Positions 2 through 37,173 of a stretch of DNA of 37,174 nt are shown piece after piece. Position numbers and translations under genes: made by a program. The notes below the pieces were generated by a model. The model ran no database searches. It had not been told where the DNA came from and saw only the letters and a list, made by a program, of their open reading frames with translations. The stretch comes from Candidatus Gastranaerophilales bacterium (lineage in GTDB: Bacteria; Cyanobacteriota; Vampirovibrionia; Gastranaerophilales; Gastranaerophilaceae): positions 1 through 37,174 of the forward strand of contig JAFQHZ010000001.1 of NCBI GenBank assembly GCA_017415185.1. The letters are read 5' to 3'. How positions within the stretch are numbered: the first letter of the stretch is position 1; each line of letters starts with the position of its first letter.

Positions 2-679
2 TTCTCCTTTGGTTCAGACTGGAATAAAACACAACAACTATTCAAAAAATACTTATCAACAACAAGACAACCCTACGACTCTTCAATTCAAATGGGTTCA
101 TTTTCAACTTCAGTCCAAGATTCTCCAACAGCAAACTCTCAAACCCCACCCTTCCACCTTAAAGACGGAGCATTATTATTCCTTGGAACAGGAGAAAAAT
201 ATCAAGTCTCCCCATCTGCATCAGGAACAATAACAGTAGATGGATGTGAAATGTCTAAATCCCTCCTTGGAATCATAACAGTAGATATTAACGGCGAAGA
301 TGAACCTAACACCCCCTACAAAGATCAATTCAACTTCCCCATAAGCTCCAAGGGAATTGAGTATGAAATGATGTGTCAGGAAGCGCAAGTTGCGCAAGAG
401 GAATTATCTGATTGTGCTTTAGCTCAACAACAAGCAGCTAATTTTAGCTTATCTGTCTGTGGTGGTAGTCCAGATATATCGTCTGAATATTGTGAATCTT
501 TGGGGAATGCGTGGACGTATAAACCTAGCTTGTGCGAATGTGATGGCGATGGGGTGCATACTTTGGAAGAATGCAGTTATACTGAAAATACAGGTAAAAC
601 GTGTGGCGGAACGATAGAATATCCTTATTGCGCAAACCCTTGTGGATATAAAATTGATTGTAGCGCTGTATGGGAATAA
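2..679 (+). CDS. Type IV pilin-like (pseudopilin) protein, 5'-truncated by window edge
   Basis: The reading frame is open to the left edge, so the N-terminus, where a prepilin cleavage site and hydrophobic helix would sit, is missing. The visible part contains WNKTQQLFKKYLSTTR, then a DGALLFLG segment, and then a region (codons from about 251) with IITVDINGEDEPNTPYKDQF. That region fits the conserved 'D-x-NG...PN..G/YKD.F' C-terminal segment of type IV pilin-like proteins, as I recall the family. The last ~95 residues are Cys-rich (about ten Cys, ending PYCANPCGYKIDC), which suggests disulfides and an extracellular location. An in-frame ATG at 92 exists but is unlikely to be the start because homologous sequence precedes it. 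Codon use is noticeably C-richer (CCC, TTC, AAC, ATC) than in neighbouring genes. A paralog sits at the right edge on the opposite strand. The pilin assignment is by pattern only. Confidence 0.6.
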   Translation, partial: FSFGSDWNKTQQLFKKYLSTTRQPYDSSIQMGSFSTSVQDSPTANSQTPPFHLKDGALLFLGTGEKYQVSPSASGTITVDGCEMSKSLLGIITVDINGEDEPNTPYKDQFNFPISSKGIEYEMMCQEAQVAQEELSDCALAQQQAANFSLSVCGGSPDISSEYCESLGNAWTYKPSLCECDGDGVHTLEECSYTENTGKTCGGTIEYPYCANPCGYKIDCSAVWE

Positions 680-27508: not shown

Positions 27509-28831
27509 ATGGAAAACAATTTTGATACAATTTGCGCAATAATAACCCCGCTTGCAACTGGAGCCGTTGGAATAATAAGGATTTCGGGCGATAAATCTTT
27601 TAATATTGCTCAAGAAATATTTGATAAGAAAATCAAACCTAAAATGATAAATTATGGGCATATTATCGATGGAAATGACGTTATAGACGAAGTTATCATA
27701 CTTCCTTTTGTTGCTCCGCATAGCTATACAGGCGATGATGTCATTGAAATTCAAACCCATGGAAGCCCAATTGTCTTAAATTCTGTTTTAGAGTTGATTT
27801 TATCAAAAGGTGCAAGGCTTGCTTTAAGAGGGGAATTTACTAAGCGTGCTTTTTTAAACCATAGAATTGACTTATCTCAAGCAGAAGCAATTTTAGATAT
27901 TATTCAGTCAAAAAGCGCAAAATCGGCTCAAAATGCTTTATCTAATTTGGGCGGATATTTAAAAAACAAAACTAACGAAATTAAAAATAATTTAATTGAA
28001 ATTTATTCAAAAGTTATTGCTTCAGTCGATTTTCCTGAAGATGTTGCTGAAGTTGATACAAATTATATCGTTTCGAAATGTAGTGATAATATTCTTCAAT
28101 TGGAAGAAATTTTAAATAACTCTAGAAGTCACGATTTTATTAGGGATGGACTAAATGCTTGTTTAATCGGAAAACCTAATGTTGGCAAAAGTTCGCTTTT
28201 TAATGCACTTTTAAATTACACTCGTGCAATTGTTACTCCAATTGAAGGTACAACTCGTGACACAATTAAAGAAGCAATCAATTTAAATGGATATTTAATC
28301 AATTTTATTGATACAGCAGGAATTCGAGACAAAGAAAAAGCAGATTTAGTTGAACAAATTGGAATTGATAATTCGCTTGAAGCAATTGAAAATAGCGAAA
28401 TTGTATTATTTTTGTTTGAAAATTCTTTGTCTGAAATCGAAGAAGAATTGATTGAAAGAGCAAAAAATAAACAAATATTGTTTATCAAAACAAAATGTGA
28501 TATAAATTCAACTTCTGTCGATAATTCGCTTGAAATTAGCTCAAAAACAGGCTTTGGAATTGACAAATTAAAAGAAAAAATAACCGAAATTATTAAAAAT
28601 TTAATTCCGCAAGATTCTAATTACACAACAAACAAGCGCCAGCAAACCTGTCTTTTGAGAGCGAAAGAGTCGCTTTATAATGTTATTAAAACTTCTGAAT
28701 TTAATTCTGATGCTGATTTGTTTGCAATGGATTTAAAACAATCAATTCTTGCGCTTGATGAAATCACTGGCGAAGTCTTAACTGATACAATTTTAGACAA
28801 TATATTTGACAATTTTTGTATTGGCAAATAA
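27509..28831 (+). CDS. mnmE: tRNA modification GTPase MnmE
   Basis: With MnmG it adds the carboxymethylaminomethyl group to wobble uridine 34 of certain tRNAs. The N-terminal domain opens DTICAIITPLATGAVGIIRISG (folate-binding fold). The inserted G domain shows GKPNVGKSSLFN (G1), DTAGIRD (G3) and TKCD (G4). The last residues CIGK are the MnmE signature with the catalytic Cys. It has 440 residues. I chose ATG 27509, as the longer frame from 27362 would pass through the yidC start and promoter region. Its stop is 2 bases from the convergent unknown gene. Confidence 0.97.
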   Translation: MENNFDTICAIITPLATGAVGIIRISGDKSFNIAQEIFDKKIKPKMINYGHIIDGNDVIDEVIILPFVAPHSYTGDDVIEIQTHGSPIVLNSVLELILSKGARLALRGEFTKRAFLNHRIDLSQAEAILDIIQSKSAKSAQNALSNLGGYLKNKTNEIKNNLIEIYSKVIASVDFPEDVAEVDTNYIVSKCSDNILQLEEILNNSRSHDFIRDGLNACLIGKPNVGKSSLFNALLNYTRAIVTPIEGTTRDTIKEAINLNGYLINFIDTAGIRDKEKADLVEQIGIDNSLEAIENSEIVLFLFENSLSEIEEELIERAKNKQILFIKTKCDINSTSVDNSLEISSKTGFGIDKLKEKITEIIKNLIPQDSNYTTNKRQQTCLLRAKESLYNVIKTSEFNSDADLFAMDLKQSILALDEITGEVLTDTILDNIFDNFCIGK

Positions 28832-30329: not shown

Positions 30330-31604
30330 CTAAATTAATTTTCTTGCTATATGATTAGCGACAGCTTCACCCATGGACATGCAACTTTTTTGAACTCTAA
30401 GTGCGCTATGGGCTTCAAAATCTGCTCCAAGAATTTTTCCAATCATATAAAGATTGTCATAATTTGCGCTCATCAAGGATTCAATTGGTAATTCATAAAT
30501 AGAAGTTTTTTGTAAAACGGAAGAATTTTTGTTTGCGCTATGAATATCAATTGAATAATTTGCCCTTAAAACTGGCGTATCAAAGGTTTTTGAAGATATT
30601 AAATCTTCTTTAGTAAACACATATTTTGATTTAATTCGATTTTCTTCTCGAATCCCTGTTTGAGTCGCAATATTTGTTATTATTGAATCTTGAAAGCCTG
30701 GGAAATATTTTTTAACAAAGTTATATATTCTCCAAATCGCTTTTTTTGCTGATATTAGCTCTTTTGAAGCCATATATGGGTTATTTTGATAATTATCGAT
30801 ACGAGGGCAATTGAAAGCTACTTGGTTTTTTGCACCCGCAATTGAAAAAATTTGGAAATAAGAGCGGTCTTTTTCGTTTAAAATTCCTTCATTAACGCCT
30901 TTTTGAAGGTATTTATCGAGTGCCCAATAACAAGATGTGTCCCAAGTCGATGCAGTTGTGAAATGCAATTCGTTGTTAGTATCTCTATCGTTTCGATAGG
31001 TATTGGTAATATTCTCGTCTTTATCAATTTCGGTTATAAAATTACAAAATTCCTCAATATTAACATTTCCAAGAATAAAACGAAGAGAGTTTTGCTGTTT
31101 TTTGTTTTCTGAAGGCAAAATATCGCAATTTGCCAAAATTGAAAATTCAGCAGAACCTGTTGCATCAATAAAATACATCGCCTCGATTGGTATTGATAAT
31201 ATATTTGATTTTAAAATTACTGAATTGATTTTGTTTTCATTATAAGATATTGATTCAACAGTTGTTTCAAAAAGAATATCCAAATTATTAAACTCAAGAA
31301 CTTCCTCAAGAACAATTTTTAAAACTTCAGGATTAAGCCATCCATCGTTTTTGTCGGAATATGTTATTTGCGCATTAAATTTTTTTGCTGTATCGATTAA
31401 TTTTTTATAAAAACCACAATTCAAATCTTCAACCGAAGATTTCATGATTGGAACAACTAATCCCCCCGTCATCAACCCGCCAAGAAAATTGTTTTTTTCA
31501 ATTAGTAAAGTTTTTAATCCAAGTTTGGCGCAATTATATGCGCAAGCACATCCAGAAGTGCCTCCGCCAACAATTAAAACGTCGTATTTTGATAGTTTAT
31601 CCAT
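30330..31604 (-). CDS. FAD-dependent oxidoreductase (FAD_oxidored type)
   Basis: The N-terminus has the dinucleotide motif VLIVGGGTSGCACAYNCAK and, at the end of the second strand, LLIEKNNFLGGLMTGG, the form seen in the FAD_oxidored (PF12831) group. YFIDATGSAEFSILA and the C-terminal YMIGKILGADFEAHSALR close the FAD site. The substrate is unknown. I place the start at ATG 31604 (424 aa): the upstream in-frame ATG at 31622 lies inside the promoter. There is no Shine-Dalgarno. Two copies of the regional 18-bp motif lie within the gene (at 30993 and 31183). It is divergent from the response regulator. Confidence 0.85.
   Translation of the reverse strand: MDKLSKYDVLIVGGGTSGCACAYNCAKLGLKTLLIEKNNFLGGLMTGGLVVPIMKSSVEDLNCGFYKKLIDTAKKFNAQITYSDKNDGWLNPEVLKIVLEEVLEFNNLDILFETTVESISYNENKINSVILKSNILSIPIEAMYFIDATGSAEFSILANCDILPSENKKQQNSLRFILGNVNIEEFCNFITEIDKDENITNTYRNDRDTNNELHFTTASTWDTSCYWALDKYLQKGVNEGILNEKDRSYFQIFSIAGAKNQVAFNCPRIDNYQNNPYMASKELISAKKAIWRIYNFVKKYFPGFQDSIITNIATQTGIREENRIKSKYVFTKEDLISSKTFDTPVLRANYSIDIHSANKNSSVLQKTSIYELPIESLMSANYDNLYMIGKILGADFEAHSALRVQKSCMSMGEAVANHIARKLI
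30993..31010 (+). repeat. Regional motif, copy 1 (inside FAD oxidoreductase)
   Basis: TCGATAGGTATTGGTAAT, 2 differences from the exact core. The nine bases before (CTATCGTTT) and ATATT after continue the similarity to copy 4, giving 25 of 27 matching positions. Here TATCG-TTT-CGATA is a perfect inverted repeat. Confidence 0.7.
31183..31200 (+). repeat. Regional motif, copy 2 (inside FAD oxidoreductase)
   Basis: The exact core TCGATTGGTATTGATAAT within coding sequence (the codons for ILSIPIE on the minus strand). The preceding ATCGCC again lets ATCG pair with CGAT. Confidence 0.75.
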
Positions 31605-31638: not shown

Positions 31639-31681
31639 AAGTGTTCTATTATATATCCTTTTAAACTCCTTTGCATGCAAT

Positions 31682-31699
31682 TCGATTGGTATTGATAAT
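31682..31699 (+). repeat. Regional motif, copy 3 (intergenic, merges with dif-like site)
   Basis: The exact core TCGATTGGTATTGATAAT, in the gap between the divergent oxidoreductase and response regulator. Its right two thirds form the left arm of the dif-like sequence at 31688. Confidence 0.75.
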
Positions 31700-31715
31700 G
31701 TATATTATGTACGAA
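31688..31715. other. dif: Candidate dif-like XerC/XerD recombination site
   Basis: The 28-bp segment has the 11-6-11 layout of dif: left arm 31688-31698 (GGTATTGATAA), central TGTATA (31699-31704), right arm 31705-31715 (TTATGTACGAA). The inner 16 bases ATAATGTATATTATGT equal the core of E. coli dif as I remember it, and the leading GGT also agrees. The outer ends differ. It is intergenic, as expected. No xer gene is in the window. The left arm is shared with four other motif copies that lack the right arm, so it may be a chance similarity in AT-rich DNA. Confidence 0.4.
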
Positions 31716-31878: not shown

Positions 31879-32571
31879 ATGCAAAATAATATAATTGAAA
31901 ATCAAAATGAACATATTGTTAGGCTAATATTAATTGATGACCATAAACTTTTTCGCTGTGGGATAAAATCATTGTTTGAAAATTCAAAAGGAGTTTGCGT
32001 TGTGGCTGAAGCTTCCAATGGCAAAGACGGAATCGCAAAAATTCTTGCGCAAAATCCTGATGTTGTTTTGCTTGACTTGGAATTGGGCGACATTAACGGA
32101 TTAGATTTGATTGAAAGAGTGATTTCTCAAAAGCCAAACGTTAAATTTGCAATTTTAACTTCGCATGTTAATGAGCATGTTATTAATAAAGCGATGAAAA
32201 TGGGAATTTATGGATATATTTTAAAAGATATTAACTCAGAATTGCTTGATATGATTGTAAAATCGGTCTCAAAAGGAGCAATGTGGATTGATAGGAAAGT
32301 TGTTCAAATTTTAAGAGAATTAAACCCAAATGTCGTTCCAAATGCGCAAATTTCGCGCTCAAATTTTAAATCGACCCATGCAAACCTGACAGCAAGGGAA
32401 TACGAGGTCCTTAAACTTGTTGTTGATGGTAAATCTAACCTTCAAATTGCAAATGAGTTAAATATTTCAGAACATACATCAAAAGCCCACGTTTGCAATA
32501 TCATTCAAAAGCTTGTTGTTGATGATAGAACACAAGCAGCGGTGAAAGCAATTCGTGAAGGAATTGTTTAA
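31879..32571 (+). CDS. NarL/FixJ-family response regulator (orphan)
   Basis: The N-terminal receiver has the acidic pair D20/D21 (LILIDDHKLF), the phospho-acceptor D66 (VVLLDLELGD), T94 (AILTS) and K116 (YILKDI). The C-terminal LuxR-type HTH (residues ~168-228) shows NLTAREYEVLKLVVDGKSN then LNISEHTSKAHVCNII. It is thus a DNA-binding transcriptional regulator controlled by phosphorylation. No histidine kinase is nearby, so it is an orphan. AAAGGAG precedes the ATG. It is flanked by inverted copies of the 18-bp motif (31682 and 32574), which could be its binding sites. Confidence 0.93.
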   Translation: MQNNIIENQNEHIVRLILIDDHKLFRCGIKSLFENSKGVCVVAEASNGKDGIAKILAQNPDVVLLDLELGDINGLDLIERVISQKPNVKFAILTSHVNEHVINKAMKMGIYGYILKDINSELLDMIVKSVSKGAMWIDRKVVQILRELNPNVVPNAQISRSNFKSTHANLTAREYEVLKLVVDGKSNLQIANELNISEHTSKAHVCNIIQKLVVDDRTQAAVKAIREGIV

Positions 32572-32573
32572 AT

Positions 32574-32591
32574 ATTATCAATACCAATCGA
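32574..32591 (-). repeat. Regional motif, copy 4
   Basis: The exact core in inverted orientation, starting 2 bases after the response-regulator stop. Read on the minus strand it is preceded by AATCGTT, so AATCG-TTT-CGATT is a perfect inverted repeat. Confidence 0.75.
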
Positions 32592-32609
32592 AACGATTAT
32601 AACTAGAAT

Positions 32610-32627
32610 ATTATAGATACCTATCGA
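32610..32627 (-). repeat. Regional motif, copy 5
   Basis: TCGATAGGTATCTATAAT on the minus strand, 15 of 18 positions as in the core, 36 bases from copy 4 in the same orientation. Both lie in the presumed promoter region of the rhodanese gene, together with TATAAC/TTATAG elements. Confidence 0.55.
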
Positions 32628-32652
32628 CTAGATATAAAACAAAGGAGGAAAA

Positions 32653-36762: not shown

Positions 36763-37173
36763 TTAACATAAATCAGGCCAACAACAACTTACTGAATAGC
36801 CACATGGATGATGACATGAAGGACATGAGACAACACCAGAGCCACAACTGCCATCAGGACGAGTGTTGCTGCATACTCCACCTGGGTCAAAGGTCCATCC
36901 ACTTCCCAATGAAGAACAATAATCAGCAGTTATATCTCCTCCATTACATGGAGTTTGCCCTGATTCAATCATACATGCGTAATTGTTTCTAAGTTGCGCT
37001 ACAGAGTTACAATCATAACTAGCTAACTCATTTTCCTGACACATCATTTCATACTCAATCCCCTTGGAGCTTATGGGGAAGTTGAATTGGTCTTTGTAGG
37101 GGGTGTTGGGTTCTTCTTCGCCATTGATGTCTACTGTTATGATTCCAAGGAGGGATTTAGACATTTCACAACC
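36763..37173 (-). CDS. Type IV pilin-like protein, 5'-truncated by window edge
   Basis: This is the paralog of the gene at the left edge. The frame is open to the right edge (GCE before MSKSLLGIITVDINGEEE), so the ATG at 37164 is unlikely to be the true start. The first ~47 residues are almost identical to the other copy. The remaining ~90 differ but keep a framework: C-N-GG-D-I-T-x-DYC-SSLGSGWTF, then Cys-rich SCPSCHHPCGYSVSCC. About 14 Cys in 137 residues imply disulfides outside the membrane. Codon use is C-rich. It lies upstream of and in the same direction as adhE, without a visible terminator between (111-base gap). Confidence 0.6.
   Translation of the reverse strand, partial: GCEMSKSLLGIITVDINGEEEPNTPYKDQFNFPISSKGIEYEMMCQENELASYDCNSVAQLRNNYACMIESGQTPCNGGDITADYCSSLGSGWTFDPGGVCSNTRPDGSCGSGVVSCPSCHHPCGYSVSCCWPDLC

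Follow-up and report, generated by a model that had tools for sequence, protein, structure and literature searches.

The genome of a Candidatus Gastranaerophilales bacterium carries, in an intergenic region, a 28-bp sequence that resembles the bacterial dif site and whose left arm recurs nearby. This locus raises the question of whether the sequence is the dif of the organism and marks its replication terminus, and of what the repeated arm would mean for Xer recombination. The window analyzed is an entire contig of 37,174 bp from a draft genome of 1.87 Mb in 43 contigs. Near-identical stretches are found at both contig ends (window 2-679 and 36763-37173), in opposite orientation and coding for a protein with MSKSLLGIITVDINGE; this repeat probably broke the assembly here. 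Several Candidatus Gastranaerophilales MAGs derive from animal guts (GTDB genomes).

A single dif site in the terminus region

The site (31688..31715, + strand) has the 11-6-11 layout proposed by the sequence-only reading, GGTATTGATAA-TGTATA-TTATGTACGAA, with the XerC arm at 31688-31698 (GGTATTGATAA), the centre at 31699-31704 (TGTATA) and the XerD arm at 31705-31715 (TTATGTACGAA). The 16-base core (31695-31710) matches the dif core of E. coli at every base, also as proposed, and the site is indeed intergenic, between the divergent ORFs of an FAD-dependent oxidoreductase (PF12831; 30330..31622, - strand) and a NarL/LuxR-type response regulator (PF00072 and PF00196; 31879..32571, + strand). Over its full length, it matches E. 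coli dif at 20/28 bases, the best value in the window (the runner-up has 19/28), and the core with up to three mismatches is found twice in the window, 1.5 matches being expected. The search for a second, better dif found none, the core being single-copy in the whole genome (G000), with one exact match, none with one mismatch and six with two. Considering that ~0.03 exact core matches per genome are expected (an estimate from base composition), the match in a single genome is suggestive and no proof. The pattern TATAAN6TTATGTNAA was rejected as a dif finder in this genome, where it gave 27 matches (up to one mismatch) vs 39 for a reversed control.

The claim that the locus marks the terminus predicts a sign change in GC skew. 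A contig of 37 kb is not long enough to reveal one; the skew was analyzed in 400 kb around dif in two relatives, G008 and G136. It changes sign near dif in both, from +0.017 on the left to -0.026 on the right in G008 and from +0.014 to -0.045 in G136, and the step at dif in the gene-strand-corrected (third-position) skew was larger than in all 500 permutations in each of them, which places dif in the terminus region. The best breakpoints lie +15 kb and -42 kb from dif, with bootstrap ranges that include it; hence, the terminus is placed no finer than at this scale, and the claim holds to within ~50 kb of dif in these two relatives.

Conservation and gene context of dif across the order

A query of 301 bases around dif, searched against 58 relatives, matched all 27 same-genus genomes (27/27), and many of these matches shrink to ~29 bases at dif itself, which is the best conserved stretch of intergenic DNA there. 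The 19 aligned same-genus loci read GGTNNTGATAA TGTATA TTATGTA, with GGTATCGATAA in one and GGTTACGATAA in another. Their right-arm consensus is TTATGTAACAA, from which the XerD arm of the window copy (TTATGTACGAA) deviates; a conserved XerD arm of the form TTATGTNAA is present both in this consensus and in other genera, as TTATGTAAGAA or TTATGTAAAAA. The conservation among same-genus genomes settles the identity of the site, and 31688-31715 is almost certainly dif, the XerCD crossover site. Within the order, 186/192 genomes have a matching core (up to two mismatches). Since several two-mismatch matches fall in the same genome in some cases, this count is a maximum for dif itself. The centre is mostly TATATA in other genera and TGTATA in that of the window.

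Among 21 loci compared, the oxidoreductase gene is close to dif in all (21/21) and the response regulator is within 6 kb of it in 13/21. In 13/21 loci, including the outgroup family f7, dif lies within a PF05430 methyltransferase gene (ORF cluster c2; loci L096-L103, L105-L107, L109 and L110), where it codes for LHNIYY or a close variant. This gene is missing beside dif in the genus of the window and a few others; dif has been retained, and is intergenic in the genus of the window. A location inside a gene in most Gastranaerophilales genera is a difference from the XerCD-dif systems of E. coli and B. subtilis; in a 2011 survey, 93.9% of the predicted dif sites were non-coding, and the prediction failed in Cyanobacteria (PMC3025954).

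Genera g6 and g42 contain many dif-like sites of the form GATAATAT[TG]TATTATGTA, up to 29 core matches per genome, arranged as inverted pairs with a spacing of 250-760 bp and mostly intergenic. Examples are 1559+/2127- and 6652+/7414- in L226, 1190+/1808- in L227, 1578+/2076- and 9419+/9896- in L228, and 1337+/1587- in L229. These could be MITE-like elements or invertible segments with ends that mimic dif.

Xer recombinases, prophages at dif and the search for FtsK

In keeping with the Xer partners expected for such a site, the genome encodes two Xer-type recombinases, one XerC-like and one XerD-like, of 295 and 297 amino acids. Their best models are TIGR02225 (XerD; 309.5 bits) and TIGR02224 (XerC; 298.2 bits), with both proteins below the equivalog cut-offs and the TIGR02225 match above the PRK00283 cut-off.

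In some relatives, an insert of ~5.5 kb is found immediately to the right of dif. In locus L154 it carries the gene of a microvirus capsid protein (PF02305, E 1e-174) together with one for a replication protein, with dif at 1035-1062 and attR at ~6555; a second prophage is found in L155 (dif at 552, attR at ~6076) and a partial microvirus prophage at dif in L156. In L154 and L155, attL retains the complete 28-mer dif, while attR, 5.52 kb away, repeats the centre and the XerD arm, reading TGTATA-TTATGTAACAT and TGTATA-TTATGTAACAACAGGCTTTAAACTCTT, respectively. The combination of one full dif and, at the opposite end, a variable copy is also found in the gokushovirus prophages of E. coli, the integration of which requires XerC and XerD (PMC7062461), but the hosts here are Gastranaerophilales, in which FtsK was not detected. 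Prophages at the exact site may be taken as indirect, natural evidence that the dif of this lineage recombines. A search of IMG/VR for contigs with the attachment sequence gave 13 matches, and the longest ORFs of the six examined were unlike those of the microviruses at dif.

The remaining possibility for the site, that it arose by chance or serves as a promoter element, could appeal to the AT-rich region, in which loose core matches are common. It has next to no probability, considering that the site is conserved throughout the order, with an unrelated methyltransferase gene around it in most other genera, and that prophages have integrated exactly there.

Recombination by XerCD at chromosomal dif sites is generally switched on by FtsK. 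However, we found no FtsK with the gamma domain on which such activation is based: this domain (PF09397) was detected in 0/58 genomes (8/14 control genomes were positive), and the motor domain (PF01580) was not found in the genome of the window and exceeded the cut-off in 2/30. Neither Tus (PF05472) nor RTP (PF02334) was found in the genome of the window, with positive controls in E. coli and B. subtilis.

A polar array of composite sites around dif

The left arm of dif had been described as part of a regional motif that could be tied to Xer recombination. Both statements were borne out, the second in an extended form: CGATTGGTATTGATAA is found exactly three times in the genome, always within 1.4 kb at dif, and the motif proved to be a palindrome plus a XerC-arm register, a unit that is repeated around dif throughout the family. 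The array consists of ~28-bp composite sites in which a 13-bp palindrome (TATCG-NNT-CGATA) abuts an 11-bp XerC-arm register (KRTANYGATAA), with the arm towards dif. Each side usually has one to three sites in the first ~1 kb, a few others being as distant as 6 kb.

In the window, one composite site overlaps dif (31675..31702, + strand), with a degenerate palindrome (ATGCAATTCGATT) followed by the XerC arm (GGTATTGATAA). To the left, all on the + strand, two sites lie within the FAD oxidoreductase ORF, at ~-505 (31176..31203; CATCGCCTCGATT plus GGTATTGATAA) and ~-695 (30986..31013; TATCGTTTCGATA plus GGTATTGGTAA), and a distal one within mnmE at ~-3.6 kb (28066..28093; TATCGTTTCGAAA plus TGTAGTGATAA), the position of which in relatives ranges from -2.1 to -4.5 kb. 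To the right, on the - strand, are a site at ~+883 (32571..32598; AATCGTTTCGATT plus GGTATTGATAA), between the response-regulator and rhodanese genes, and another at ~+919 (32607..32634; TATCTAGTCGATA plus GGTATCTATAA); the gene of the rhodanese-domain protein (PF00581; 32653..33048, + strand) is the right border of the intergenic region that contains the right-hand sites. About 20 same-genus loci have sites at matching positions, ~-700 and -510 on the + strand, separated by 190 bp, and ~+900 and +940 on the - strand; site positions are also conserved in other genera. The other one-mismatch site of the genome lies near a contig end (C25, at a distance of 0.5 kb) and probably corresponds to the site found at +5.5 to 6.5 kb in relatives.

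Orientation was counted in 46 distinct loci using TCGATWKRTANYGATAATATT with up to three mismatches, leaving out the site that overlaps dif. Up to 1.5 kb from dif, the left side had +65/-4 sites and the right side -61/+8; between 1.5 and 6.5 kb the counts were +8/-0 and -6/+0, and beyond 6.5 kb a single site was found in 153 kb. Reversed or shuffled control motifs gave 0-2 matches. Correctly oriented sites on both sides (up to four mismatches) were present in 53/63 loci with enough flanking sequence, and among the ten loci that deviate are both f7 loci and two in which the right-hand sites are displaced. A KOPS-like distribution along the replichores was rejected, since nearly all good matches in two 400-kb stretches are within 6 kb of dif. 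In family f7, dif is present, FtsK matches are absent and no array with the same motif was recognizable, the repeated 16-mers there being AT-rich noise. Therefore, an array is not a necessary consequence of lacking FtsK; it is a lineage-specific solution and no universal need.

Two rearrangements involve the array. The microvirus prophages displace its right half to ~+6.5 kb, and a displaced array is found in L194 and L195. In genus g39, the segment with dif and the methyltransferase is inverted in L096 (G153:C1) relative to the oxidoreductase and the response regulator, compared with L097 and L098, and the breakpoints lie in intervals that contain array sites.

Site anatomy and selection on the DNA

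The columns to the left of the scan motif played no part in the detection of the sites; they read TATCG (C in 94%) and complete a 5-3-5 palindrome. Array sites have a mean of 3.57/5 complementary pairs, and other CGATW words one of 1.32. In an alignment of the site that overlaps dif, KRTANYGATAA, the remainder of a site, coincides exactly with the 11-bp XerC arm, and the first bases of the centre come next. At window positions 31675-31687, many same-genus genomes read CATGCTAA or similar and not the TATCG half seen in g34; the palindrome half beside dif has drifted in these genomes.

Several sites lie in coding sequence, and synonymous codons were scanned in the oxidoreductase gene (25 same-genus sequences, 430 windows). 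The -695 and -505 sites are the top two peaks of synonymous conservation (z of 4.5 and 4.4; the next unrelated peak has 2.6), and the site in mnmE is a peak with z of 3.8, exceeded only by the gene start. Array sites are thus conserved as DNA and not for the protein alone. We consider it very likely that the array around dif is a real, DNA-level element.

Outside the genus of the window, the variable middle of the array sites is closer to the local dif arm than to other dif arms (4.29 vs 3.74 of 7), a covariation that 0/20,000 permutations equaled, in a test that ignores shared ancestry; within the genus there was no such signal (4.488 vs 4.487). In g1 and g37, dif and array have jointly changed to CGATTGGT. 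Compensatory covariation inside the palindrome is weak, most pairs hardly varying. The G at position 7 of the arm is kept more strictly in the array than in dif in genera with dif in coding sequence; hence, the protein that binds the array may not be XerC.

Possible roles of the array

The explanation that we favor, with some reserve, has dif as the centre of the array, with a putative protein X and XerC replacing FtsK. Protein X, a putative dimeric DNA-binding protein, would occupy the palindromes and hold XerC on the adjacent arm. The X/XerC array would mark the terminus, pair both dif copies in a chromosome dimer and license recombination, in the manner of the ArgR/PepA or ArcA/PepA complexes at plasmid cer and psi. 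We assign it the job of FtsK since no recognizable FtsK was found in these bacteria, and rank Xer control first because of the exact arm register, the covariation of array and dif arms between genera and the missing FtsK. Occupation of the array arms by XerC seems slightly more probable than not. That a putative dimeric protein and XerC, acting on the array, control Xer recombination without FtsK is a tentative proposal with a little less than an even chance, and still more tentative is the specific version in which, in an FtsK-less lineage, dimer resolution at an ordinary dif is licensed by a polar array with the putative dimeric protein and XerC side by side.

In two of the other readings, the sites serve as an operator. 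The sites could anchor a MatP-like protein that organizes the terminus or takes part in segregation, with the 5-3-5 palindrome as its operator and XerC acting only at dif. In E. coli, matS (GTGAC-RNY-GTCAC) has the same 13-bp 5-3-5 geometry, and the array is restricted to the terminus, but matS sites are non-polar and spread across hundreds of kilobases, whereas the array is polar, lies within a few kilobases and conserves in its sites the XerC-arm half that gives the strict polarity, which makes this reading distinctly unlikely. The motif could also be a transcription-factor operator, for example of the neighboring response regulator, that overlaps dif by accident, as would suit a palindromic element with sites that precede the rhodanese and response-regulator genes. 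However, two sites lie deep in one ORF and one in mnmE, under selection at the codon level, the orientation of the sites follows dif, several genera that keep the array lack the response regulator within 6 kb, and good matches elsewhere in the 400-kb stretches are rare; we regard an operator as highly improbable.

A narrow polar fork trap is ranked second, because polarity and position fit it equally well. A terminator protein unrelated to Tus and RTP would let forks enter and not leave, so that they meet near dif, and the sites would look like the XerC arm because one of them overlaps dif. The sites are asymmetric and oriented towards dif from left and right, each side having several of them and distal back-ups, the site overlapping dif is oriented as the left-hand ones, and the location is the terminus. 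In known Tus traps the Ter sites are likewise oppositely oriented around the terminus, the narrow examples spanning 18 and 56 kb (PMC8707476), but a width of ~1.5-10 kb would be below those reported. Moreover, no Tus or RTP domain was found in the genome, the 11-bp XerC-arm register is matched exactly, and the skew breakpoint is coarser than the scale of the trap. We consider the fork trap rather unlikely, and continue with Xer control as the preferred reading.

Comparison with known systems

The dif itself is an ordinary bacterial dif, and the novelty lies in its setting. It shares with the XerCD-dif systems of E. coli and B. subtilis a single 28-bp 11-6-11 site with the E. coli core and centre, a location close to the change in skew, XerC- and XerD-like recombinases and hijacking by single-stranded DNA phages. 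It differs in that FtsK was not detected and palindrome-plus-XerC-arm sites flank dif. The archaeal XerA-dif of Thermococcales is also a Xer system without FtsK, and inverted repeats flanking its dif have been reported and proposed as partner sites (PMC2958812). However, it uses a single recombinase, and its polar elements are of 4 nt and distributed throughout the genome, unlike the ~28-bp sites within a few kilobases found here.

With plasmid cer and psi (ArgR or ArcA plus PepA), the proposed arrangement would share control of XerCD without FtsK through accessory DNA-binding proteins. The known accessory sites adjoin the core on one side; the array sites are chromosomal, lie on both sides at 0.4-6 kb and contain XerC-arm sequence of their own, which counts against the analogy. 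The accessory DNA of cer and psi is ~180 bp beside the plasmid core (PMC5357621), a layout that the array does not share. The array resembles Tus-Ter and RTP-Ter in having asymmetric sites in opposite orientation across the terminus (left +, right -), but is far narrower, contains the XerC-arm register and comes without a Tus or RTP that we could find in the genome.

Implications for chromosome separation

In the papers searched, we found no report of FtsK absence in Cyanobacteria or of arrays around a chromosomal dif, and a polar palindrome-plus-XerC-arm array around dif in an FtsK-free setting is apparently unreported. Since the earlier dif prediction failed in the related Cyanobacteria (PMC3025954), the clear dif described here is a starting point for that group. 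As a fork trap, the array would represent a new terminator system with dif at its center. Considering that dif and XerC- and XerD-like proteins have been retained in an order where no FtsK was found, the pairing of the sites and the timing of the reaction must depend on another factor, and the polar array is a concrete candidate for such FtsK-independent control. The lack of FtsK matches, together with an array pointing at dif, suggests that these bacteria control the last step of chromosome separation in another way.
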